A stretch of 64,000 bases of DNA from Candidatus Nitrosocosmicus oleophilus (GTDB lineage: Archaea; Thermoproteota; Nitrososphaeria; Nitrososphaerales; Nitrososphaeraceae). The DNA is taken from contig NZ_CP012850.1 in the NCBI RefSeq assembly GCF_000802205.1, positions 2,418,001 to 2,482,000 of the forward strand, given 5' to 3'. The notes under the pieces were generated by a model. The model was not told the DNA's origin and made no database searches. It worked only from the letters and a program-made list of their open reading frames with translations. Position 1 is the first letter of the stretch, and every line of letters starts with the position of its first letter. The position numbers and the translations under genes are program-made. Shown in pieces: positions 27,084 to 48,332 of the stretch.

Positions 27084-27167
27084 GCGGGGGTCGCCTAGCC
27101 TGGTAGGGCGTGGGATTGCTAATCCCATGTTCGCAAGAACTCGTGGGTTCGAATCCCACTCCCCGCG
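27084..27167 (+). tRNA. tRNA-Ser(GCU)
   Basis: An 84-nt tRNA folds with acceptor GCGGGGG/TCCCCGC, a D-arm (CCTAGCCTGGTAGGG), anticodon stem-loop GGGATTGCTAATCCC with anticodon GCT, a long class II variable arm, and the T-arm GTGGGTTCGAATCCCAC. The discriminator is G, as in archaeal serine tRNAs, and CCA is not encoded. The 3' end is the insertion site of the element that follows. Confidence 0.95.
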
Positions 27168-27168
27168 C
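27148..27168 (+). repeat. attL core (3' end of tRNA-Ser)
   Basis: The T-loop to acceptor end of the tRNA gene (ttcgaatccc... ...ccccgcgc) is identical to 48312-48332. This copy keeps the tRNA functional. Confidence 0.9.
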
Positions 27169-27181
27169 TTATCTTGGGTAT

Positions 27182-28663
27182 TTGTACGACAATTTTAAAA
27201 GTAATGACAATACAAATGACTTTAGAACGACACATTTGGCGCACGAAACTATTCTCGGTTTTGAGGAAGAGGATAAAAATAGAACAATATCTGAAAAAAT
27301 ATACTCCATAACAAAGTCCTGTTCAAAACCGTACTTTAACAAGATTTTGATTGAATTATATAATCATAACACCGAGAATGCAAATACTGTTTGTGATTAT
27401 CTAATTTCAGAAGAAACGGAAATCAATATAAAAAATTCTACAAAGGAAGGAAGAATCAAAATCCTTGTCTGGCTTTCGGTATTCCATGAGAACAAGAAAT
27501 TGTTTTCTAAAATGAGTAAACAAGATATTCTCTCATTTCTAAATAATTTGAGAAGACCTGTTTCTGAGGATCCAACTCAAAGATGGGTAGGGTCATACAA
27601 TGGTAGACAAATTATTCTAAATAAATTTTTTAGGTGGCTGTATAATCCTCAAGAACCAAACCAATCTCAAAGGATCACGCCAGAATGCATGATAGGTATT
27701 AAACAGTTGCCGCGAAAGGAAAAAACTCCCTACTCCCCTTCAGACTTATGGGAACCTCTAGAACATACTATTTTTTTAAGATATTGTCCAAATGTTAGGG
27801 ATCGGTGCTATCACGCACTAGCTAATGATATGTCGGCCAGACCTCATGAAATCTTGAACCTAAAAATTAAGGATATAATTTTCAAAAAGACCAAGGACAA
27901 TAAACAGTATGCTGAAGTCCTAATCAAGGGAGGAAAAACCAAGTCACGGACTGTACCTCTCATTGATTCAATTCCCTATGTAAAGGAATTGATCAACTTG
28001 CATCCTACAGGGTCAAATCCTGATTCCTGGTTGTTCGTATCAAAACCCAATACAGCATTTGGATCTAAACTTACTCTCGATGGGCTGACTTATCAGTACA
28101 AATATTTCTATAAAATAAGGTTTTTTCCCAGACTCTTGGAAGATCAAACAGTTCCTGAAGCTGATAAGGCGTTAATCCGGAACCTGATTACTAAAAAATG
28201 GAACCTATATGTCTTGCGACATTCCGCGCTCACTCAAAAATCGCAAATCCTAAAGGAGCACGTCTTAAGAGACCACGCGGGATGGTCGATGTCAAGTAAA
28301 ATGCCACAAACATATATTCATTATTTTGGTAATGAATCTGCAAAATCTCTTCTACAATATAAAGGGATACTTGATCCCCAAGACAAGGAAAATGACAACA
28401 CTACCCTACGACCTAGACAGTGCCCTAATTGTAACGAACCTAATAAACTGCATTCAAAATTTTGTGTAAAATGCAGAATGGTTTTGACTTATGATTCCTA
28501 TTCAGAAGTAAGAAATGAAGATAGACAAAAGATCGACAAACTTGAAAAAGATATGGGATTAATGAAAGAAGGAATGAACAAGATCCTTTTGCTTATTCAA
28601 CAAAACAATGACTTAGCAAATGTAAAACCAGAAGTCTTACAGACAGTAATAGAAAAGGAGTAA
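27182..28663 (+). CDS. Tyrosine recombinase/integrase with C-terminal zinc ribbon
   Basis: The catalytic residues fit the family: Arg in SARPHEILNLKIKD, Lys in IKGGKTKSRTVPL, box II LYVLRHSALT (Tyr in place of the usual His, Arg kept), then HAGWSMSSKMPQTYIHY with the nucleophilic Tyr. After the catalytic domain comes a zinc ribbon (CPNCNEP..HSKFCVKC) and a coiled coil. The open frame extends back to 27110 inside the tRNA. No ATG lies near, so TTG at 27182 or 27236 is the likely start. The start is uncertain; the family call is firm. Confidence 0.88.
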   Translation: MYDNFKSNDNTNDFRTTHLAHETILGFEEEDKNRTISEKIYSITKSCSKPYFNKILIELYNHNTENANTVCDYLISEETEINIKNSTKEGRIKILVWLSVFHENKKLFSKMSKQDILSFLNNLRRPVSEDPTQRWVGSYNGRQIILNKFFRWLYNPQEPNQSQRITPECMIGIKQLPRKEKTPYSPSDLWEPLEHTIFLRYCPNVRDRCYHALANDMSARPHEILNLKIKDIIFKKTKDNKQYAEVLIKGGKTKSRTVPLIDSIPYVKELINLHPTGSNPDSWLFVSKPNTAFGSKLTLDGLTYQYKYFYKIRFFPRLLEDQTVPEADKALIRNLITKKWNLYVLRHSALTQKSQILKEHVLRDHAGWSMSSKMPQTYIHYFGNESAKSLLQYKGILDPQDKENDNTTLRPRQCPNCNEPNKLHSKFCVKCRMVLTYDSYSEVRNEDRQKIDKLEKDMGLMKEGMNKILLLIQQNNDLANVKPEVLQTVIEKE

Positions 28664-30068: not shown

Positions 30069-32312
30069 TTGAGAAATAATAATAGTCCAAATGATTGGGC
30101 AGATTACTGGTATCACGAAATAGGAGTTAATGTTATACCTGCAAATACAATGAAGAAGGAGACCTTCTTCAGGTGGTCACAGTTTCAAGAAACATCGATA
30201 CCGACTGACCTATTTGACGGGCTAAAGGAAAATTATAATTTTAAAGATGGTATGGCCATTATAGCCGGGGAAATATGGCGAGGAAAATACAAAGATAAAT
30301 ATCTCGCATGTATTGACTTTGACAATAAAAAAGGTATTGAGGAATTCTTGGAAAGTTTTCCAGAAGCTCATTCATTGGATGATCTAGCAAAGATGACCAT
30401 CGTGGAACAGCATCCTGACAATCCTGAGAAAGCACATGTTTATTTTATTGTAGAGAAGCCGTTGTCCAAGAGGAGCGGATTACATACTTCGACCAAAAAC
30501 ACAGAAGCGGGTGAAATTCCCGCTATTGAAGTAAAGTCCATAGGCCAACATGGGATAATGTATTGTACTCCATCACAGCACAAAAATGGATCATATTATC
30601 AAATTGTTGGTACAAATGTACCGAATGTACTTACCAGTGTGGAGTCTGAAAAACTAGAGCTTTTACTCAATCAAATTTATATTAAGTATGGACACCCAGG
30701 AGGAGATAAAAAGTCAAGTGAAAATCATGTTTCTATTACAGAATTATTCAAAAAAGATTTTAAGATTTATGAGGGTAGCAATAGACATGAAGCCCTTCTC
30801 CGTATGATGGAATCCCTAATCCAGAGGAATTCAGGGATTGTATCAGATGAAATCATCAAAGGTTGGATTAACGGACTAAACATTCAACATTGTGATCCTC
30901 CATTAGAAGAAAAGGAAGTCCAAAAACTTTGGAATAGCGCCAAGAAATTTATTGATAGAAAAAAAAAGGAAGGAGCTCAGGAATTATTATTTGGAAGCAA
31001 TGAACCGGATGACCCAGTGGTATCAGAGGCTTCAGAATATGTAATGAGTGAATGTAACTTTGTTACATTACAAGAGTCAGACGAAATTCTGTATTATAAT
31101 AACGGGGTATATGTAAATGGAGGCGAGTTTCTAATCAAGAAATTAGTAGAACAAAGGTTTGATTATTTGCTTAACAACAGAAAAGTAGAAGACATACTTG
31201 GACATATAAGACGCAGAACTTACAAATCGAAGAGTTGCTTTGACAAGGATATGAATATTGTTAATCTGAGAAACGGTTTGTACGATATAGAAAATAATAG
31301 ATTATTGTCTCATAGTCCATCCTATTATTCGATTGATCAAAAGCCTATTACGTATGACCCAAAAGCAAGGCCAAAGTTATTTGGTAAATATTTAAGTCAG
31401 GTCCTTTATTTGAGTGAAATAAGAACTGCGATTGAAGCGATGGCCTATACTTTCTATCGTGACTGCCCGTTTGAATATTTCTTTAAGTTGTATGGGTATG
31501 GATCTAACGGAAAGAGTGTGTTTACTGGTCTGTTAACAAGACTTCATGGTGAAGAGAATGTTAGTAACGTCTCTTTGTTAAGTCTAATAGATAACAGATT
31601 TGCTTTATCCGATCTTGAAAACAAGTCTATAAACATCGATACAGAGCTTTCCAATAATTTTATCAAAGACATTTCAATATTGAAAAAATTAACTGGTGGA
31701 AGAAAGCAGCCGATAAGGATAGAGGAGAAGTACAGAAAGGCATATGATACATATTTGTACGCCAAGTTGTTTTTCAATGCGAATACTATAGCTGAATCCA
31801 TTGAAAAGACTGTGGCAATTTACAGAAGAGAAATAATCATTAGTTTTCCAAACAGCTTTGAAGGGAAAAAAGACGACATAAACCTTTTGGCTAAATTAAG
31901 TACTGAGGAGGAGATGAGTGGCATTTTTAATGTATTAATGATTTCTTTGAGACTTTTACTAAAGAACAGGGGTATCCATCTAAATGAAAAAACTGCAGAA
32001 GCGCGAAGAATAAAACATGAACGTGCCGTAAATCCTGTCAAGGCTTTTCTTGCGGAAGCCGTTGCCGATGAATCATTGACTACAGATTATGTTGTTAAGG
32101 AACATTTGTTTGAAGCCTATAGAAAATATTGTAACATTTACAAGCTTCCTCACAAACCTATGGTGGCATTAGGGAAAGAAATTGCAAAATTGAGATATGA
32201 AAGTGGAAGGGAAGGATCTGGTTTAAGAAGAACCATATGGTTCGGAATAAGATTAAAACCAGAGTATGTACCTGACAGGGAGAAGCAGCATCAGGTTATA
32301 CTACCAATTTAA
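30069..32312 (+). CDS. Primase-polymerase-like/D5-type SF3 helicase
   Basis: The 747-aa protein has two parts. Residues about 1-220 resemble bifunctional primase-polymerase domains (IAGEIWRGKYKDKYLACIDFDNKKG with acidic residues; later IEVKSIGQHGIMYCTPSQHKNGSYYQIVG). Residues about 380-620 are a D5/SF3 helicase: Walker A GYGSNGKSV near residue 475, Walker B-like INIDTEL, then KLTGGRKQPIRIEEKY and LFFNANTI (sensor Asn). The C-terminus is a poxvirus-D5-like winged region. Such fusions replicate archaeal plasmids and viruses, so the element probably has or had a replicating episomal form. Confidence 0.85.
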   Translation: MRNNNSPNDWADYWYHEIGVNVIPANTMKKETFFRWSQFQETSIPTDLFDGLKENYNFKDGMAIIAGEIWRGKYKDKYLACIDFDNKKGIEEFLESFPEAHSLDDLAKMTIVEQHPDNPEKAHVYFIVEKPLSKRSGLHTSTKNTEAGEIPAIEVKSIGQHGIMYCTPSQHKNGSYYQIVGTNVPNVLTSVESEKLELLLNQIYIKYGHPGGDKKSSENHVSITELFKKDFKIYEGSNRHEALLRMMESLIQRNSGIVSDEIIKGWINGLNIQHCDPPLEEKEVQKLWNSAKKFIDRKKKEGAQELLFGSNEPDDPVVSEASEYVMSECNFVTLQESDEILYYNNGVYVNGGEFLIKKLVEQRFDYLLNNRKVEDILGHIRRRTYKSKSCFDKDMNIVNLRNGLYDIENNRLLSHSPSYYSIDQKPITYDPKARPKLFGKYLSQVLYLSEIRTAIEAMAYTFYRDCPFEYFFKLYGYGSNGKSVFTGLLTRLHGEENVSNVSLLSLIDNRFALSDLENKSINIDTELSNNFIKDISILKKLTGGRKQPIRIEEKYRKAYDTYLYAKLFFNANTIAESIEKTVAIYRREIIISFPNSFEGKKDDINLLAKLSTEEEMSGIFNVLMISLRLLLKNRGIHLNEKTAEARRIKHERAVNPVKAFLAEAVADESLTTDYVVKEHLFEAYRKYCNIYKLPHKPMVALGKEIAKLRYESGREGSGLRRTIWFGIRLKPEYVPDREKQHQVILPI

Positions 32313-32821: not shown

Positions 32822-35743
32822 ATGAAACCCGTATCTTTATATCTCAGTAACTTTAAGAGTTTTCTCGATATTAAGCTAAATTTTAGAGATGACCTACAAC
32901 TTATTTGCGGCAAGAACAACACAGGTAAATCCACAATCCTGGAGGCGATTAGCTTACTTTTACAGAAACCACTAGACGATGCTCAGTTAAGAGATAAAAT
33001 AAACGTCTTCCAAAAAAAGAATACATTTGAGATAGTCTTAAAAGTAAAAATCGAAGAAAATGATATCTATCCGATCATAAAGAACGCAAAAGTTAGCAAC
33101 ATCCGTCTCTCACGCTCTAGTAAGGATGAAATTTATAATATGCAAAATAAAGAAATTACTATTTCTCTGTCTTATGACAGGATTATGGATAATTATACGA
33201 AGAACATTAGCTATTTTTCAAAAAACACTCAAGAAGAAATTATTGAAGTCAAGTGTTCAGTTGAAGATTATTTAGCCAAAAAGTTTTTATATATCAATTC
33301 AGACAGAACGGTTTTACCATCTGAATACTTTACCCCCAAGAATAATTTCGACAAGAATTTCATTAGTCAGAATCACAATGTTAGACATTATATTTTGTAC
33401 CTCAAAACATACAGACCAGATCAGTTTGTTAAATTTCAAAGTGCTATCAGCCAAATTTTCGAAAATATGTTGGTCAAGCCAAGAATCAACTATGAGGAAG
33501 GATTCGTAACCGTAGAAGTTAACCTTAACGGACCTAGCACAGAAATTGGTCTAATAGGTGCCGGACAAAAGGAATTGTTATTGATACTATCAAAAATATT
33601 TTACTATTCCCCAGATTTGGTTATGATAGATGAACCAGAACTGAATTTACATTATGATTTGATAATTAAATTTTTGAACTTTATGAAAAATCATAATTCA
33701 CTTTTCGTTTTATCTTCCCACAGTGATCTCTTGATCAATAATGTCAATCTGGATCAATTGATATACACGAAGCCACAAAATAATTTTATCTCTTCTATTA
33801 GTAAAATTGATAGAGAAGGTCTGAGTGAATTATACGAGGACCTTGGCTATATTCAATCAAACTATGAAAAATTAAGAAATCTTGACTATGATATGATGAT
33901 TCTTTATGAGGGTAAAGATTCAAAGGAAAAAGAAAAAAAAGTCATAAACAAATTTCTTTCAGAATCAAAAAACTCGAATACATTATCAAAGGTTAGAAAG
34001 AAATACATTCCTTTGGGAGGAAGAAAGGATAAGATCTTACACAATATTCTCGATGGTGTTTATGATATTAAATTTCCATTTATTTTGATATTGGACCGCG
34101 ATGAAGTAAATGAAAAAGATGTAGAAAAATATAATCAAACATACGAGACTCGGATTCACATTTGGGGTAAGAGGGAAATCGAGAATTATTTAATTAATAT
34201 CAGAGCTATTGTTAAAGTTCTAAGACTAAAAGGAATAGAGACAGACCCGCAAACTATCCATAAAGTAGTGGAGGACTTGTCACTTAAACTATTGAATAAA
34301 GTGGCAATTTTAAGGGTTATCGAAAGATACAAGAGAAAAACACTTATCGAAGACCATCAACGCATTTCTAAGTTTATCAGCGAAAATCAGGGTAAAAATA
34401 CTCTTGATATTGCCTCAAATCTAGGAGATTTTGTTCTTCAAGGACTTCAAGATCTGAATAAGAATAATATTGAAAATGAATTCAACAATCAGATTCTAGA
34501 ATTGAAAAATAGATGGAAAAAGGATTTTCTTACTATATGTCCAGGAAAGGAACTACTTGCACTTCTAAAAAATTATATCAATAAGACTTATCATGTGACT
34601 GTTCATGATTTTGAAATACTAGATGAAATTGAAATACTAGATGATGACATCGAAACTTTGAGTAGCAAAATTGTTAAACAAATTGATTCTATGGAAACGC
34701 ATCAGAACGAGTCGGAATCAAACAAATTCATCAAAATAGGAACATGGAATTGGCCAGTTTTATTTGAATTAACTGCGAGTGAAGAGATAGTCGTTATCAT
34801 GCCAAATTTGGAATATGATTGGAATAATACAAACTATGAAATTAAGGTGTTTAAAGAAGGAAATGTTAGATCTACTTCTATTTTGACAACCAACCTGATC
34901 CCATATGATCTAGCCATTATTGAGAGGAAAGTGTATATCCTTTGTAGTAAAGTACTTGTTGAGGATGATCGCGAATTCGAATATGACACCCTGTTAATAT
35001 ATGATATTGAATCCCAAAACCTTGATAAAGAGGTCCATTTTTACTATGAAGAAGAAGAAGGTAAGGAAGGTGATCCCTCATGCATTGCGATAAACAAGAT
35101 TACCAAGAAGGTTTATGCTTCGATATTCTATTACGAGGGAGGCAACCCGGGATTGTTTTCGCTCGAGCCACCTTATATTAATAGCAAGCAGATTTCAGAT
35201 GGCGAAGTAGGTTATTTTGATCTATTAGTAGATGAAAAAAATAATCGACTATTTGGAATATTTTATGAGAACCCGAAATATTTTCTGCATGTTTATGACA
35301 CTGAAAATGATGTAATAATTTATGATTATGAAATTGAAGCTTCAACCAGTTCGGAGTTAGTATTAAAGAATGACAATGAAATTCTAATTCAAAATCAAAA
35401 CAGCTTGCTTCGTTTGGAAGTAGCGAGTGGCCTAACTGAGATACTTCTGGAATGTAATACCTTTGAAGCGGTAAGATTTGATCCCTTGAATGAAATTGTC
35501 TATGTAATATCTCACGATAGTAATTCTGAGGTGTTTTCGCTAAATCTTTGGGATCCGCAGTCGATGATACCCATTCTGTGTAGCAAATTCAGAATTTCAG
35601 ATTTGCGAATCAGCGCACAACAAATTTGTTACTTACTTAGCGTACCAGATGGAGAAAAACAGAATAAGTTCGTATATACAATCAAGCAAAGTAGTGTTCA
35701 ATCTATTTTGCGAGAAAAGACAGAAGGTGCGTTGTTTTCATAG
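32822..35743 (+). CDS. OLD-like ATPase with TOPRIM-like region and beta-propeller tail
   Basis: The 973-aa protein joins three parts. Residues 1-330 are an SMC/OLD-type ABC ATPase: SLYLSNFKSFLDIKLNF, P-loop GKNNTGKST (30-38), signature-like LIGAGQKELLLI, Walker B LVMIDEPELNLH (about 268) and the switch LSSHSDLL. Residues 355-460 resemble the TOPRIM/DUF4435 region of OLD nucleases: ILYEGKDSKEKE, ILDRDEVNEKD, and HIWGKREIENYLI. From about residue 650 to the end, repeated strands such as INKITKKVYASI, VDEKNNRLFGIF and FDPLNEIVYVIS fit a YVTN-like beta-propeller. No signal peptide, so cytoplasmic. OLD proteins are nucleases, several acting in anti-phage defence; the propeller tail is unusual and may be a sensor or binding platform. 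Confidence 0.8.
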   Translation: MKPVSLYLSNFKSFLDIKLNFRDDLQLICGKNNTGKSTILEAISLLLQKPLDDAQLRDKINVFQKKNTFEIVLKVKIEENDIYPIIKNAKVSNIRLSRSSKDEIYNMQNKEITISLSYDRIMDNYTKNISYFSKNTQEEIIEVKCSVEDYLAKKFLYINSDRTVLPSEYFTPKNNFDKNFISQNHNVRHYILYLKTYRPDQFVKFQSAISQIFENMLVKPRINYEEGFVTVEVNLNGPSTEIGLIGAGQKELLLILSKIFYYSPDLVMIDEPELNLHYDLIIKFLNFMKNHNSLFVLSSHSDLLINNVNLDQLIYTKPQNNFISSISKIDREGLSELYEDLGYIQSNYEKLRNLDYDMMILYEGKDSKEKEKKVINKFLSESKNSNTLSKVRKKYIPLGGRKDKILHNILDGVYDIKFPFILILDRDEVNEKDVEKYNQTYETRIHIWGKREIENYLINIRAIVKVLRLKGIETDPQTIHKVVEDLSLKLLNKVAILRVIERYKRKTLIEDHQRISKFISENQGKNTLDIASNLGDFVLQGLQDLNKNNIENEFNNQILELKNRWKKDFLTICPGKELLALLKNYINKTYHVTVHDFEILDEIEILDDDIETLSSKIVKQIDSMETHQNESESNKFIKIGTWNWPVLFELTASEEIVVIMPNLEYDWNNTNYEIKVFKEGNVRSTSILTTNLIPYDLAIIERKVYILCSKVLVEDDREFEYDTLLIYDIESQNLDKEVHFYYEEEEGKEGDPSCIAINKITKKVYASIFYYEGGNPGLFSLEPPYINSKQISDGEVGYFDLLVDEKNNRLFGIFYENPKYFLHVYDTENDVIIYDYEIEASTSSELVLKNDNEILIQNQNSLLRLEVASGLTEILLECNTFEAVRFDPLNEIVYVISHDSNSEVFSLNLWDPQSMIPILCSKFRISDLRISAQQICYLLSVPDGEKQNKFVYTIKQSSVQSILREKTEGALFS

Positions 35744-37595: not shown

Positions 37596-38156
37596 ATGCA
37601 GAACATAGTAACACAAACAAGTCAAGCTGAATCTATATTGAAGCCAATTAACCGCGTTTATGAATCAATTGATCTTCCGTTTTTGGAAATATTCGGAATC
37701 GAAAAAGGAACAAACCTCTATAGTCATACAGTAACATTTCCTACTATAGACATTTGCCCTGTAGATTCGGACACAATACTTTTCAAGTTAGATAAAAATT
37801 CTTTGACATTGTGTAGATTGGAAAACCGGAGCACTATGGAAAACAGATTTTGTTATATTATTAAAACTGAGCTCACTTCATTTGGTTACGAGAGTAAAGA
37901 AAGCTTAAATTGGGAGGTCCTTTTCTATGGCCATCACGGGGGTTTGCATGGATTGCATCACAACACGGTTAATTCATACATAATTAACAACGATGACACC
38001 AGGAAAGGATTTTACGTTAAGTGCGAACACAAGAATAAAATTTTAACAGCACTGATAAATCTAGACAATTGTGACTGGTATGATGAATGGCTCTGGAATA
38101 CAAAAACTGTTTGGGAATTTAAAAGCGGAAACTTAGTTATCTGCAAAGCTTCATAG
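37596..38156 (+). CDS. Unknown 186-aa protein with His/Gly-rich loop
   Basis: I do not recognise this family. The protein is soluble and rich in beta strands, with no signal peptide. Its centre contains FYGHHGGLHGLHHNT (about residues 109-123), with five histidines that could bind a metal, and the C-terminal third is Trp-rich (CDWYDEWLWNTKTVWEF). It lies about 850 bp from the radical-SAM locus inside the same element; a role there is only a guess. Confidence 0.65.
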   Translation: MQNIVTQTSQAESILKPINRVYESIDLPFLEIFGIEKGTNLYSHTVTFPTIDICPVDSDTILFKLDKNSLTLCRLENRSTMENRFCYIIKTELTSFGYESKESLNWEVLFYGHHGGLHGLHHNTVNSYIINNDDTRKGFYVKCEHKNKILTALINLDNCDWYDEWLWNTKTVWEFKSGNLVICKAS

Positions 38157-39000: not shown

Positions 39001-40170
39001 TTATTTGTGATTAAATAGTTTTTCATTGAGATTTGATCCCTTAATTTCACTAAATACCTTATTTTTTATATGCACAATTAATTTCATGAGATCATTACAA
39101 TAAACACTTGGATTATCAAATTCGCTTTTTGTCGAATAACGATGAGGCAAATATCCACCTCCACAGATATCAACTATTGAGCATTCTCTACACTCTGCAC
39201 AAAGTGATTCAAAACCCCTTTGCATTAGTTTAATGATAGCATGTGAAGAAACTTGATCTAAAGTATTTTCAAATACGTTGTATCCTAGACGAGCCGCTCC
39301 ACTATAAGTGGTTTTCAGAACATCCAGGCCTTCAATATCTCCGTTGGTTTCAATAACAACAAATTCCATAGGCGTTAATCCGAATGAATCCATAGTAGAC
39401 CTTTGACCTAACACACTACGTATTAATACATCAAACATTCTTACATTTGTTTTTGTTTTATGACTAAACCAATAGTCAAAGATTTCAATTAACCAATCTG
39501 CATATATGGTATTATTATTTTTCATACCTAATGGTAAATAGTCATGATTATTATCTGGGAGAAGAAAATCAATGGAAGCTGGTTCATAAGATAATAAATA
39601 CTCTAATACTAAAATCGGGTTCGATTCGATATTAATTACGCATAGAAATCCTCCAAAAATTTTTCTATATTTAGATGATGTTAAAATATGTAATTTACTT
39701 TCCAAAAGATTCGTACTTGGGTTTCCAAAATGATCGATCCGGTTCTTATCATTTATTACAGGAGGTCCATCAAGGCTAATCGATAGCGTTACATTTTTTC
39801 TTAACAGTAGATCACCGATTTCAGGTGAAAATAAAAGTCCATTGGATTGGATACTTATATAAAACTTTACAGCATATTTATGGAATACGTTTTCTAAGGT
39901 CGATATTATCTTCGCTAAATAATCTGCACCCCCAAGAAGAGGTTCGCCTCCATGAAAAACTATCCCAATTTTTTTTATTGAATTGGAATTGCAATACCTA
40001 GCAATATTTAATGCTGCTTGGGATGCTACTTCCGCGGTCATAAAAGGGGGCTGATTTTTCCAGTTATTATCTTGTCCATTATATATGTAACAATATGAAC
40101 AATTTAAGTTACAACGACTTGAGATTTTCCAGACAAAAGTAGTAAATCGTATAGTTGTATTTCTTTTCAA
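39001..40170 (-). CDS. Radical SAM/SPASM peptide maturase, FxsB-like
   Basis: The 389-aa enzyme has the radical-SAM cluster motif CNLNCSYCY (Cys20, 24, 27), preceded by FVWKISSR, then FHGGEPLLGG and SISLDGPP. The C-terminal SPASM-type cysteines (CAECRECSIVDICGGG) are followed by YLPHRYS and FDNPSVYCNDLMKLI. The N-terminus and the HRYS...FDNPSVYC ending match the FxsB family of peptide-modifying enzymes, related to the three-residue cyclophane (triceptide) synthases, which crosslink an aromatic side chain to a residue two positions on. It probably modifies a ribosomal peptide in the cytoplasm. The TTG start at 40170 lies 6 nt after the stop of the small peptide gene and in the same frame. Confidence 0.82.
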   Translation of the reverse strand: MKRNTTIRFTTFVWKISSRCNLNCSYCYIYNGQDNNWKNQPPFMTAEVASQAALNIARYCNSNSIKKIGIVFHGGEPLLGGADYLAKIISTLENVFHKYAVKFYISIQSNGLLFSPEIGDLLLRKNVTLSISLDGPPVINDKNRIDHFGNPSTNLLESKLHILTSSKYRKIFGGFLCVINIESNPILVLEYLLSYEPASIDFLLPDNNHDYLPLGMKNNNTIYADWLIEIFDYWFSHKTKTNVRMFDVLIRSVLGQRSTMDSFGLTPMEFVVIETNGDIEGLDVLKTTYSGAARLGYNVFENTLDQVSSHAIIKLMQRGFESLCAECRECSIVDICGGGYLPHRYSTKSEFDNPSVYCNDLMKLIVHIKNKVFSEIKGSNLNEKLFNHK

Positions 40171-40176
40171 TAACTT

Positions 40177-40356
40177 TCATTTGAGGGTCTTTTCAAACTT
40201 TATCGTTATTTTATCTTCAAAAGGCTCGTCTTGTTGCTCTTTAGCCTGTTGGATTAAATTCTTCAATATTTCTTTTAATTTTGCATTTGCTATACAATCT
40301 ATATCCTTTTCTTCTAATTCTGCAGGATTCATTGATAAATCTAGCGTTTTATCCAT
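40177..40356 (-). CDS. 59-aa peptide, candidate RiPP precursor
   Basis: An ATG at 40356 opens a 59-codon frame that ends 6 nt before the radical SAM gene. The peptide starts MDKTLDLSMNP, has a central charged amphipathic helix (KLKEILKNLIQQAKEQQ) that would suit a leader, and a strand-like C-terminus KITIKFEKTLK. The FEK near the end is an aromatic-X-X triplet of the kind crosslinked by three-residue cyclophane enzymes. A TATA-like element (40381-40390 on the other strand) sits about 27 nt upstream, giving a leaderless mRNA that begins at this ATG. Size, position and promoter support a real gene; the precursor role is inferred. It could instead be a small partner protein. Confidence 0.6.
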   Translation of the reverse strand: MDKTLDLSMNPAELEEKDIDCIANAKLKEILKNLIQQAKEQQDEPFEDKITIKFEKTLK

Positions 40357-40531
40357 ATCAATTTAAGGTAACACAAATGTGTATAAATCTTTTTTGTTAT
40401 TGAATATTTCATTTTATCACTTATCCTAGAGTATTCTGCCTTTTTCTTAATTGTATACCATAAAAGACGTTCTTACTATATGCATGAATATATATTAAAT
40501 TTAAATATGAAGATTAAATAGTGAATTTGTT
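40357..40531. promoter_or_regulatory. Bidirectional promoter of the radical-SAM locus
   Basis: This 175-bp gap drives the peptide/SPASM operon leftwards and the cobalamin-type radical SAM gene rightwards. Leftward TATA: minus-strand agatttatac at 40381-40390. Rightward TATA: tatatattaaat near 40,489-40,500. An inverted repeat acacaaatgtgt (40371-40382; arms acac/gtgt) touches the leftward TATA and is a candidate operator. Confidence 0.55.
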
Positions 40532-42337
40532 TTGGATGTTGCTCTTGTTGTAATGCCTTTTGGGATAATTCAACGCCCTTCACTAGGAGTTAGTCTTCTT
40601 AAAGCTTCACTCAGTAAAAACCAAATCTCAAGCAAAATCTATTATTTCAATCTAGACTTAGCAAGAATGATTGGATTTAAGCTTTACAGTAAGATCGCAG
40701 GACATTCAAGCTTACTAGGAGAATACTTATTTTCGAGAACTGCATTCGATTCAAAACAATGGAACACAGAAGAGTTAAAACATTTTGTAAAAAAATATAC
40801 AGACGAGTCTTCATTAGAATTAATCCAACAATTGGCCAGAATCAAAGAAGACATACCATGCTTTATAGAAGAATGCGCAGAGAAAGTTTTGAGTGAAAAT
40901 CCGAAGATAATTGGTTTCAGCAGCATATTCCACCAGAATTGTGCTTCCATATCTGTTGCTAGAAAAATTAAAGAGAAATCTTCTGCACAAATAATATTTG
41001 GTGGTGCTAATTGTGAAAATGAAATGGGCGCAGCACTCCTCAAATGTGTACCCGATATTGATTTTGTTTGTTCAGGAGAAGGCGATAAATCATTCATAGA
41101 ATTCACTAAATTATTTCTTCAAAATATGAACGCTAAAGTACAGGGTATAATTACAAGTCAATCATCTGAATTAGAAAAATATTTGACCCAACCAATATTA
41201 GACATGGATAGTCTTCCTATTCCTGACTTTGATGAATATTATAAGAAAATAAAAGATCTCTCGCTAGAAGAAATCCAACCAAAATGTACCATGGAAACTT
41301 CACGTGGTTGTTGGTGGGGAGAAAAACATCAATGTACATTTTGTGGCCTTAATGGCGCTACGATGAATTTTAGATCGAAATCAGTACAGAGATGTTTAAC
41401 AGAGATAAAATATTTAAAGAGAAAATATGATATTAAAAATATATACGTTGTTGATAATATTTTAGATTTAAGATATATTAATAGTTTATTTCCAGAACTT
41501 GAAAAAGAAGAAATCGGTGTTCAATTTTTTTATGAAACTAAATCCAATCTTAGTAAACAACAACTTATACAAATGAAAAATACTGGGGTTAATTATCTTC
41601 AACCAGGAATAGAAAGTTTAAGCGACAAAATACTAAAGATTATGGAAAAGGGAGTAACAGGACTGCAAAATATTCAACTCTTAAAATGGTGTAGAGAATT
41701 AAATATTAATGCATACTGGAATCTTCTATATGGATTTCCTGAAGAACCGTATGATGAATATGACAAAATGGCAGGAATGGTGCCATTATTAACACATATC
41801 AAACCTCCATCAGGAATTTTTCAGATTAGTCTGGATCGATTCAGCCCATATTTCATTAATCCAAAATTTTATGGATTGACGAATGTCCGTCCTAGACAAG
41901 ATTATTATGATGTTTACCCCTTTGCCGATCAGGATATACGAAGTCTAGCTTATCATTTTGATTTTGATTATGAAGAGGATAGGTACCCGTTTCAATATGT
42001 TACTAAACTGAGAAATGAAATTTCTGCTTGGTCAAACAAATGGAAACAAGAAGCACCGGTATTAGTAGCAATCAGTACAGATGACGAAAATTTATATATA
42101 CATGATACACGAGATTGTAGAAAAAATACTAAGGATTTATTAAGAGATCAGACTGCCCTAATTTATAGAATATGTGACTCTGTTCATTCTTTTAATAGTA
42201 TTTACATGAAAATCAAATCTACTTTTCCAAATATGGATAAAACTATGTTATTAAGTGAACTTGAAAGTCTCATTAATAGAAAAATAATGATATCTTATGA
42301 CAATAATTATTTATCTTTGGCCAATACTTTTAAATAG
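40532..42337 (+). CDS. RiPP maturation radical SAM protein 1-like (B12-binding)
   Basis: The 601-aa protein has an N-terminal cobalamin-binding-type Rossmann region (residues about 1-215, with IGFSSIFHQN and IIFGGANCENEMG; no DxHxxG). A radical-SAM core follows with the uncommon cluster motif CWWGEKHQCTFCGLNG (CX7CX2C; Cys260, 268, 271), then FRSKS, QPGIESLSDKILKIMEKG, NLLYGFPEE and PPSGIFQISLDRFSPYF. The C-terminal tail ends in INRKIMISYDNNYLSLA, as in the same family. All of these are signatures of the TIGR03975-type RiPP maturases, several of which act as peptide C-methyltransferases. Expected substrate: a ribosomal peptide. TTG start, divergent from the SPASM gene. Confidence 0.88.
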   Translation: MDVALVVMPFGIIQRPSLGVSLLKASLSKNQISSKIYYFNLDLARMIGFKLYSKIAGHSSLLGEYLFSRTAFDSKQWNTEELKHFVKKYTDESSLELIQQLARIKEDIPCFIEECAEKVLSENPKIIGFSSIFHQNCASISVARKIKEKSSAQIIFGGANCENEMGAALLKCVPDIDFVCSGEGDKSFIEFTKLFLQNMNAKVQGIITSQSSELEKYLTQPILDMDSLPIPDFDEYYKKIKDLSLEEIQPKCTMETSRGCWWGEKHQCTFCGLNGATMNFRSKSVQRCLTEIKYLKRKYDIKNIYVVDNILDLRYINSLFPELEKEEIGVQFFYETKSNLSKQQLIQMKNTGVNYLQPGIESLSDKILKIMEKGVTGLQNIQLLKWCRELNINAYWNLLYGFPEEPYDEYDKMAGMVPLLTHIKPPSGIFQISLDRFSPYFINPKFYGLTNVRPRQDYYDVYPFADQDIRSLAYHFDFDYEEDRYPFQYVTKLRNEISAWSNKWKQEAPVLVAISTDDENLYIHDTRDCRKNTKDLLRDQTALIYRICDSVHSFNSIYMKIKSTFPNMDKTMLLSELESLINRKIMISYDNNYLSLANTFK

Positions 42338-42359: not shown

Positions 42360-43112
42360 TTAACTTAAACCTAATTCCCTCTTAATTGATTCTCCATTGC
42401 TAATGTTGTTTAATTTTGTTACCAGATCCTCTATTAATGCATCTATCCGTATACCCTCATTATTGACATAAATATCTAAACCAAAACTATCTTGAGTTGT
42501 ATCCCCGAAAGCATGGTGAAGAGATATCAAATCCCATTCGTTGTTAAACACTGGAGACCCAGATGATCCCGTTTCAGTGTCTGTGAAGTATCGAATATAT
42601 TTCGCAAATATCTTTGTCAAACGATTTTCTTGAATTGAGATCTCTTTGTACCTACCATCGGGATGTTGTATAATATTACAAAATGATCCTTTCTTATACT
42701 GAGGATTCTTGTTCAACTGAATGTAGCCCCACTTATCTCCGGGATTGTTATTTAATTTAATTAAAGTGTAATCCAAATCGTTTTTGTCGCTTGTTATGAA
42801 GACATCTTCTGACGCGGTGTAAGAATCCGTGGACTGAACATCACCATGTATATCTTTCTGATAATTAAATTCAAATGTTGAATTTTGGATTTGACCTTGT
42901 GTGCTTATAACATGATTATTCGTCAAAAATAAGGATGATGAAACTAAAAAACCACTAGCAAATTTAGACCCCATCTTAACCCTTGCAACTGCTCGTTGTC
43001 TGATTAACCCTTTATCCAAATAAGATACTGGTAGAAATTCATTCGTTTCTATCATTGCTTCAAAGGGTTCAAGTGCTAGGAATCTATTTTGGTCTAAATC
43101 ATGGATTGACAT
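42360..43112 (-). CDS. Cytoplasmic trypsin-like serine protease
   Basis: The trypsin/HtrA fold carries a full catalytic triad: His in FLTNNHVI, Asp in DLDYTLIKL, and Ser in TETGSSGSPVFNNEW (GSSGSPV motif). With the ATG start at 43112 (250 aa; an in-frame GTG lies at 43133) these are His67, Asp114 and Ser186. No signal peptide and no PDZ domain are present. It converges on the B12 radical SAM gene with 22 nt between stops. A role in removing a leader peptide, or as the effector of a modified-peptide system, is inferred from context. Confidence 0.8.
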   Translation of the reverse strand: MSIHDLDQNRFLALEPFEAMIETNEFLPVSYLDKGLIRQRAVARVKMGSKFASGFLVSSSLFLTNNHVISTQGQIQNSTFEFNYQKDIHGDVQSTDSYTASEDVFITSDKNDLDYTLIKLNNNPGDKWGYIQLNKNPQYKKGSFCNIIQHPDGRYKEISIQENRLTKIFAKYIRYFTDTETGSSGSPVFNNEWDLISLHHAFGDTTQDSFGLDIYVNNEGIRIDALIEDLVTKLNNISNGESIKRELGLS

Positions 43113-43133
43113 CTTTATCGGAGTTAGTACCAC

Positions 43134-44210: not shown

Positions 44211-44245
44211 GTACTCCCAAGATTAACTAATGGATTCGAATCCCA
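44211..44245 (+). repeat. Partial att-like repeat inside the element
   Basis: This copy is about 85% identical to the left arm of attR (48287-48322), sharing cccaagat, ctaatggattcgaatccca, but it stops before the acceptor-stem part of the core. It is either the remnant of an earlier insertion boundary or a duplicated attP arm. Confidence 0.7.
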
Positions 44246-45111: not shown

Positions 45112-46692
45112 CTAAGCACCGGGTTTCTTATAATTGTGTAATGCATCGTACAAACGGTAATATCCATATGCAAAGAAGACGGCACTGACAAAATAAGATA
45201 CTGGATATAATAAGGCATTATTTTTATTATTTCCAACAAATACTCCTGAGAATTCTTCCTCCTTTATTAATTCAGATGAATAGATGGATAGATAATAAAC
45301 TGAAAAGAGGAACAATAAAAGCGGAAACACCAGAGTTAGTAATTTGATAAATAAAAGTGTCCTAGATCCATATGGATCAACCCATAGAGAAGCTAGTAAT
45401 GAAATTCTATACTTGTGCAAATCTATAGGTAGTAGTGTAGAGAATCGTTCAAGGCCTCTCCTAAGTAAAATGGTATCACTTAGGAGTGATGCAGAAATCA
45501 AAAAGCCCAAGCCGATTCCTATCGGAAAAAATGAAACCGTATCAATTATGTTAAGTGGTATTTTTCCAATTGGAAATTCGATCTCCTTAAGCATTTCAGT
45601 CGTTTCATTTTTCTTTATTTCTAATTGAGTCATTTTTTTATTGACATTATCTATGGTATTGTTATAGTATACAAGTTGATACCTTAATATATCATCAATT
45701 TCACTGAATATGGGATTGTATTCGTTTATCTGCGATGAAATAGTGGATAGGAGCTCGTTAAATTGTGTTGCACTAAGCGTCTGGGAAGAATTCATAAAAT
45801 TAAAATGATTAAGAGCTGAAGCTGCATTGAATTTTTTTACATAATCATCCCTTAGATTTGGAATATTTTTTTCCAGCTTTTGCAAATTGTGTTTTATCGT
45901 AACTATTTTTTCCGACACGCTTGTGTTGAAAAGCTGTGAATTTGAATTAATGTCTTGTTTAACTTTCGCAATGTCATTCATTAATACCTGCACTTGGTTC
46001 AAATGCTTAATATTAAGCGAATCCAATCGATTTATGAGATTGTAATTCAACCAAAAAGGACTTCCTGCATAATAAGCAGATTTGTAGTATTCTAAGTTCT
46101 CAACCTCGCTTTTATCTAGCATGGGACTTTCATATTCCTCATTGTAACTGTCTGGGACAAAATTACTATACGCATGGTATTTCTTTTCAGATTCATTATT
46201 ATTATAGAAAGACAATAATGTGGAATTGTTAAGTGCAGGGAAGGAGTTTCCCCGTGAGTCCGCAATCACATAGCATATGTCCAATAACCAAAAGGCTTTA
46301 TTCTTAACATAACCTTTAACTTCGTCAATGTCTTCTTCGGAAGTTTGAATTAACCGGTGAGCATATTGGTTATTATTACATTTCTGAATATTATTTGCCA
46401 CTGTTTCTGTAATGCTTTTGTAGTATTGAACAATGGTAGCATTATCATTGTGTAAAGTAGTATTAAAGGCAACTGCATTGGTTTGAAATTGCAATAGACT
46501 GTTTTGAACAAGTTCGAGAAACCGAATTTGATCGTTCAGATCCTTATGTTTATCTAGGATTGACAAATAAGGCAAAAAAATAAAAAAAAAGAAAAAAACA
46601 ATGATACCTATAAAAACGGCAAATGTGCGGTTAAAACTTTTCGACTTGTCCTTAAATTGTTCATATCTGTGATCAAAGTCGTCTACGGCCAT
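45112..46692 (-). CDS. Large membrane protein with extracellular helical domain
   Basis: The 526-aa protein has one N-terminal membrane helix (FAVFIGIIVFFFFFIFLPYL), about 330 mostly helical, coiled-coil-prone residues rich in Asn and glycosylation sequons, then about four C-terminal helices (for example FPIGIGLGFLISASLL and LLTLVFPLLLFLFSVYYL). This layout fits a surface sensor or anchor. I do not recognise the family. It starts at ATG and faces the CHRD gene. Confidence 0.65.
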   Translation of the reverse strand: MAVDDFDHRYEQFKDKSKSFNRTFAVFIGIIVFFFFFIFLPYLSILDKHKDLNDQIRFLELVQNSLLQFQTNAVAFNTTLHNDNATIVQYYKSITETVANNIQKCNNNQYAHRLIQTSEEDIDEVKGYVKNKAFWLLDICYVIADSRGNSFPALNNSTLLSFYNNNESEKKYHAYSNFVPDSYNEEYESPMLDKSEVENLEYYKSAYYAGSPFWLNYNLINRLDSLNIKHLNQVQVLMNDIAKVKQDINSNSQLFNTSVSEKIVTIKHNLQKLEKNIPNLRDDYVKKFNAASALNHFNFMNSSQTLSATQFNELLSTISSQINEYNPIFSEIDDILRYQLVYYNNTIDNVNKKMTQLEIKKNETTEMLKEIEFPIGKIPLNIIDTVSFFPIGIGLGFLISASLLSDTILLRRGLERFSTLLPIDLHKYRISLLASLWVDPYGSRTLLFIKLLTLVFPLLLFLFSVYYLSIYSSELIKEEEFSGVFVGNNKNNALLYPVSYFVSAVFFAYGYYRLYDALHNYKKPGA

Positions 46693-47948: not shown

Positions 47949-48311
47949 CAATAACTATTGGAAGTGAATACCATGATCTAGATCCAACACCTAATTGTTT
48001 TTTATATTTATCAACAAGTAAAATGTATTGAAAGTCTTAATTTGATTATAGAATTTTCGATATGTGAAAAGCCCTAGTATTTTGGCTTGGCTTGTTGCTA
48101 GTTGTCATATTATGATATTAATCCTATCCATTCCGAACTTGTAAACATTTTGAAGTTAATTCCTGTGTTACCATAATCAAATAACCCTTTATTCAGAAAA
48201 GGAGGCCAGAAAATTGACTTGTCTCCTCGAGTATTGCTACATAGTTCAAATACCACTCTCGGTGACTAAAACATTTTTTAAGTAATACACTCCCCAAGAT
48301 AACCTAATGGA
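47949..48311. other. Right end of the element, gene-free
   Basis: AT-rich DNA leading to attR. It contains the attP arm that is repeated at 44.2 kb. No gene seen. Confidence 0.45.
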
Positions 48312-48332
48312 TTCGAATCCCACTCCCCGCGC
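48312..48332 (+). repeat. attR core (copy of tRNA-Ser 3' end)
   Basis: 21 bp identical to 27148-27168, preceded by ggattc.. instead of gggttc... No tRNA 5' half is present here, so this is a target duplication and not a gene. Confidence 0.9.

Follow-up and report, generated by a model that had tools for sequence, protein, structure and literature searches.

A probable FxsB-type RiPP precursor gene on a tRNA-Ser-integrated element of the archaeon Candidatus Nitrosocosmicus oleophilus

Introduction

Bacteria are known to make radical SAM cyclophane peptides, and the described systems closest to the locus reported here are the FxsB/MscB triceptide systems (maturases of TIGR04269; FxSxx-COOH precursors of TIGR04268) and the YhhA-YhhB pair (NF041705, NF041707). 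MscB carries IPR026335, which we take to be the FxsB family. In 3-CyFE chemistry, MscB makes a C4(Phe)-Cbeta(Ser) bond and Tyr-Asp and Tyr-Arg crosslinks are formed as well, so that the i+2 residue is Ser in MscB, while Asp at this position has a precedent in the other 3-CyFEs YxdB and OscB (PMC11002830). The maturase gene of bacterial and viral FxsB loci is usually preceded directly by a small gene, which encodes YhhA, HaaA or an unnamed peptide, and such upstream precursor genes are present in YhhB, HaaA, FxSxx-type and viral FxsB loci alike. The aromatic-X-X triplets of the bacterial precursors include YDR, YDK, FNS, FSS, YTS and YNS. On contigs classed as viral (IMG/VR), two FxsB-like maturases (L081:946-2509 and L083:3621-5074) were found with repeat-bearing precursors of their own.

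Another radical SAM family, the TIGR03975 C-methyltransferases of RiPP maturation, is known from pheganomycin-type, Os1348 NHLP and CefA clusters. Cryptic integrated elements of Thaumarchaeota, with a median size of 17 kb, integrate at tRNA 3' ends and carry a tyrosine integrase and a primpol-S3H-like replication protein, and the text of the survey that describes them does not name radical SAM or RiPP cargo (PMC6563490). Our literature search, whose coverage was incomplete, found no paper describing an FxsB-type system in archaea. Here, we describe a 59-aa frame in a 64,000-nt stretch of Candidatus Nitrosocosmicus oleophilus, an ammonia-oxidising soil archaeon of the family Nitrososphaeraceae (NZ_CP012850.1, positions 2,418,001 to 2,482,000; hereafter the window), which we consider, with a probability of about 0.76, to be an FxsB (triceptide) RiPP precursor gene of bacterial origin, carried on a tRNA-Ser-integrated element and encoding a peptide with FxsB-made cyclophanes.

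The small frame and its promoter

The frame, its promoter and the gene that follows it are:

40382..40387, minus strand: TATA box TTTATA, centre 28 nt before the ATG of the 59-aa frame
40177..40356, minus strand: 59-aa candidate RiPP precursor (by translation, coding score and position directly before FxsB), with a leader of about residues 1-40 and a core of about residues 41-59
39001..40170, minus strand: FxsB-family radical SAM/SPASM cyclophane-forming peptide maturase (TIGR04269), TTG start, 389 aa

The translation of window:40356-40177(-) is MDKTLDLSMNPAELEEKDIDCIANAKLKEILKNLIQQAKEQQDEPFEDKITIKFEKTLK* (59 aa), exactly as given in the initial annotation. Codon statistics derived from 34 long genes in the window were applied to ORFs of 45-90 aa. 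With a mean codon log-odds of +0.20, the frame ranked first among 39 intergenic ORFs, scored higher than every spurious ORF located inside genes (0/81 as high) and exceeded 94% of length-matched fragments of real genes; none of the other small ORFs in the locus came near this score. The TATA box that had been claimed upstream of the ATG was also found, at a position that fits a leaderless mRNA, and an exact TTTATA stands in the -18 to -36 zone of only 228 of 20000 random window positions (1.1%). Since the codon score lies above that of the spurious ORFs and the TTTATA box is in place, the frame is very probably a gene rather than a chance ORF. Its TGA (40179-40177) is followed by AAGTTA and then by the TTG of the maturase at 40170, so that the maturase starts 6 nt past the stop and shares both strand and reading frame with the small frame. 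This is the layout usual for bacterial and viral FxsB loci, in agreement with the proposed placement of a precursor directly before its maturase.

The maturase and its relatives

The adjacent gene, called a SPASM gene in the initial annotation, belongs to the FxsB family of three-residue cyclophane maturases, above the curated NCBI cut-off (398.8 bits against TIGR04269, cut-off 370, covering positions 1-362 of the 363 in the profile). The second-best family model was YhhB, with 383 bits, under its own cut-off of 445. The radical SAM cysteines C20-C24-C27 and the SPASM cysteines C327/C330/C336/C358 are invariant in 17 homologues, and the nearest solved structure is the cyclophane synthase ChlB (9gm3, 272 bits). 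By family assignment, the enzyme is predicted to form a C-C bond from an aromatic residue to the i+2 side chain. The archaeal locus shares with YhhA-YhhB and ChlB a leader followed by an aromatic-acidic-X triplet, but its precursor has no YDRxHHRHNR core, and its maturase, at 389 aa, lacks the fused C-terminal domain of the Rhizobium and Novosphingobium proteins (711-716 aa).

The genome contains one FxsB, which is the only one above the cut-off among 398 sampled genomes of the phylum, where the other matches reached 111-133 bits. The nearest complete relatives are bacterial, on a Calothrix plasmid (40% identity) and in Paraburkholderia (39%), and a 17-protein tree placed the archaeal enzyme as sister to Paraburkholderia with support of 98/95 and long branches. 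In the sampled phylum, TIGR03975 proteins are confined to this genome and one other genus of the family, where the copy adjoins a different candidate precursor. The simplest reading is that the FxsB and TIGR03975 genes were acquired from bacteria. The archaeal FxsB is an ordinary member of its family; the novelty in the sample lies in the host domain, in the precursor sequence and in the association with TIGR03975. In a genome of the same family (G035), we also observed an FxsB remnant (L068:10353-10466) comprising the N-terminal 38 aa, 63% identical, in a gene that is apparently interrupted after its first 50 codons.

The peptide as a precursor

The candidate core contains two triplets, both recognised from the sequence:

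40213..40221, minus strand: candidate core triplet Phe46-Glu47-Asp48
40189..40197, minus strand: candidate core triplet Phe54-Glu55-Lys56

The initial annotation had proposed the FEK triplet as an aromatic-X-X core; this triplet is present, but it is just one of two, and Phe46-Glu-Asp had been missed. Phe46-Glu-Asp lies 18 aa past the NAKL leader motif, a distance inside the 14-19 aa range of bacterial precursors, which is a weak indication. For Lys at i+2 (Phe-X-Lys), the literature examined yielded no precedent with an FxsB enzyme; darobactin joins Trp and Lys (PMC9055067). In the general sense, the locus has the composition of a triceptide-type precursor, namely a small gene beside a 3-CyFE, with a leader and C-terminal aromatic-X-X. 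It resembles the FxsB/MscB systems in having a maturase above the family cut-off, an upstream small precursor gene and an aromatic-X-X triplet near the precursor C-terminus, and differs from them in its archaeal host, in a precursor without FxS or a C-terminal FxSxx, in having Asp and Lys at i+2, and in a B12-type C-methyltransferase as partner instead of FxsC, HEXXH or GNAT genes. A search of the genome with the FxSxx precursor model (TIGR04268) gave nothing up to E=10, and the peptide had no NCBIfam match at E<=1, including the YhhA model (NF041705).

Conservation in related archaea had been proposed as a check on the peptide; no homologue was found in 60 related archaea, because those relatives have no complete FxsB, and none was found in plasmid records. 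Against shuffled sequences, the leader aligned with 3 of 12 FxsB precursors at p=0.006-0.016 (13 comparisons, p uncorrected), and the Paraburkholderia leader aligned with it better than 99.4% of shuffles. In a search with a profile from nine bacterial precursors, the peptide ranked 16 of 1083 with E=22, which is not significant. We therefore do not claim leader homology to bacterial precursors, for which the pairwise likeness is suggestive and the nine-precursor profile is not significant. A leader-to-core regular expression was dropped because it matches 13-21% of random ORFs too, and a likeness to the peptide that follows a Niallia C-methyltransferase (INNSKLKEIL/IANAKLKEIL, p=0.009 uncorrected) is probably due to chance. 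An AlphaFold model of a peptide-FxsB read-through fusion, built with five homologues, had a mean pLDDT of 65 and a poor SPASM region and was not used; the pLDDT of the peptide was about 34-61, too poor for docking to show.

Neighbouring enzymes

Three further genes flank the precursor and maturase:

40532..42337, plus strand: RiPP maturation radical SAM C-methyltransferase (TIGR03975), divergent from the precursor
42360..43133, minus strand: trypsin-like serine protease, V8/glutamyl-endopeptidase-like (PF13365, 74.9 bits), candidate leader peptidase
37596..38156, plus strand: flanking gene for a 186-aa protein without a family (no match in NCBIfam or Pfam)

The C-methyltransferase matches TIGR03975 over its full length with 652.2 bits, far above the cut-off of 281.85; its B12-binding Pfam domain, taken alone, is under the cut-off (24.9 versus 32.1). 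It is 44.6% identical to the copy in the other genus of the family. No TIGR03975 gene was found near FxsB in 21 FxsB loci (0/21), and conversely, unlike the archaeal gene, those in the 7 TIGR03975 loci inspected are paired with other precursors and never with FxsB (0/7). A second precursor was sought near the C-methyltransferase, but none of the small ORFs there came close in coding score; joint action of this enzyme with FxsB is our guess. In the other genus (G016, L074:7819-11135), the TIGR03975 gene is followed by two others. One encodes an 84-aa peptide that contains GG and ends in AAFWPI, the other a 368-aa protein that looks terpene-synthase-like by eye and has no Pfam match. Archaea may thus have a further RiPP locus, of another type, in this segment.

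The protease gene is convergent to that of the C-methyltransferase, and its H/D/S triad is aligned and apparently complete; the V8-like fold suggests cleavage after Glu. From the gene order together with FxsB, the C-methyltransferase and the V8-like protease nearby, we conclude that the peptide is most likely the FxsB substrate. We regard the 59-aa frame as probably encoding a triceptide-type RiPP precursor, in an archaeal host and within a mobile element.

The integrated element

The RiPP locus is enclosed by an integrated element of about 21 kb (27148-48332), with these landmarks:

27084-27168: tRNA-Ser(GCT)
27148..27168, plus strand: attL, the 3' end of tRNA-Ser(GCT), an exact 21-nt repeat
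27110..28663, plus strand: tyrosine integrase (PF00589, 29.1 bits), true start uncertain as the frame overlaps the tRNA
30069..32312, plus strand: primase-polymerase/D5-like helicase, the element replication protein (PF09250, PF08706, PF19263)
48312..48332, plus strand: attR, an exact 21-nt copy of attL

Past the tRNA, the genes for the tyrosine integrase, a winged-helix protein and the primase-polymerase/D5 protein follow in this order, and the integrase beside the tRNA and the recurrence of the tRNA 3' end, in direct orientation, at the opposite border mark a tRNA-targeting element, as in the cryptic elements of Thaumarchaeota. Three congeners (G003, G005 and G010) have related elements at the same tRNA, with integrases 54-72% identical and the 21-nt copy about 19-23 kb away, and no FxsB was found in them; the element-side attR arm CCCAAGATAACCTAATGGA is common to the window and the attR of two of the three. 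The tRNA-Ser(GCT) is therefore an integration hot spot of the genus. An empty site was sought as well, and the right flank had no match in the congener pieces compared.

A degenerate third copy of the right end (30 nt at 44216-44245, 93% identical to 48293-48322) points to a tandem pair of elements or to an attR of greater age, and the tandem reading would put the RiPP locus within the first element (27.1-44.2 kb). The cargo of the ~21-kb element also includes a 973-aa AAA ATPase (32822-35743), defence-like of the AriA/OLD/Gabija type, with PADLOC scores of at most 88 bits and a long extra C-terminal part. In 12 congeners, the protease has no counterpart and the gene at 45112-46692 has a sole one (in G008, 25% identical); this scarcity is as expected of accessory DNA.

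Discussion

We propose that the precursor and FxsB would be co-transcribed from the single TATA promoter, and that the N-terminal helical part of the peptide would serve as a leader guiding FxsB. The enzyme would crosslink Phe to the i+2 side chain of Phe46-Glu-Asp, of Phe54-Glu-Lys or of both, and the peptide would thereby acquire one or two three-residue cyclophanes. This core may then be methylated by the divergent C-methyltransferase and set free by the V8-like protease; if the protease cleaved after Glu40, a 19-mer containing both triplets would result. The role would most likely be that of an antagonistic or element-maintenance peptide, because carriage on a mobile element and the lack of conservation fit such a role better than a housekeeping one. 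The fullest version, in which the element carries a complete two-radical-SAM pathway for a C-methylated peptide crosslinked at both triplets and acting as a weapon or maintenance factor, is tentative, and we put it at rather long odds.

The best-surviving alternative is that the FxsB-modified peptide acts inside the cell in a conflict or signalling module rather than as a secreted antimicrobial. A role of this kind is suspected where FxsA/HaaA-type loci adjoin NACHT, TPR or caspase genes; the nearest bacterial FxsB is two genes from a NACHT protein and a caspase-like neighbour occurs in Rhodococcus, and in the archaeal locus no transporter gene was seen and no signal peptide of the protease was obvious by eye. 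Nevertheless, no NACHT, TIR or effector gene lies beside the archaeal locus, and the closest ATPase of defence type lies 3 kb past FxsB, possibly as a separate piece of cargo, so that we regard an intracellular role as unlikely, though the most serious competitor. Decay of the locus, as mobile-element cargo without a product, would agree with its retention in no relative and with the short FxsB remnant that is all a genome of the same family holds, but none of the four genes is damaged, FxsB has kept each of its catalytic cysteines, the promoter is present, and the codon adaptation of the precursor is high; we therefore consider decay improbable. Slightly less probable still, the frame could encode a genuine small protein, such as a regulator or antitoxin, with another peptide as the FxsB substrate. 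Its charged helical sequence without a homologue and the non-significant precursor-family matches would allow this, yet no other small ORF near the maturase scores strongly as coding, and the frame lies 6 nt from the maturase gene in an operon and has two C-terminal aromatic-X-X triplets. Finally, a chance ORF, which the short frame and the missing homologues might suggest, is highly improbable for a frame that outscores all 81 spurious and all other intergenic ORFs and has an exact TATA box at the right distance and FxsB directly behind it.

The precursor reading thus remains our preferred one. The combination of FxsB and TIGR03975 chemistry in one pathway is absent from the loci examined, and with a complete and intact precursor-maturase pair in an ammonia-oxidising archaeon, the radical SAM cyclophane peptides would reach into a further domain of life. 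If the reading is true, integrated elements move RiPP pathways into archaea, and the locus would be a hint of peptide-mediated competition among soil nitrifiers.
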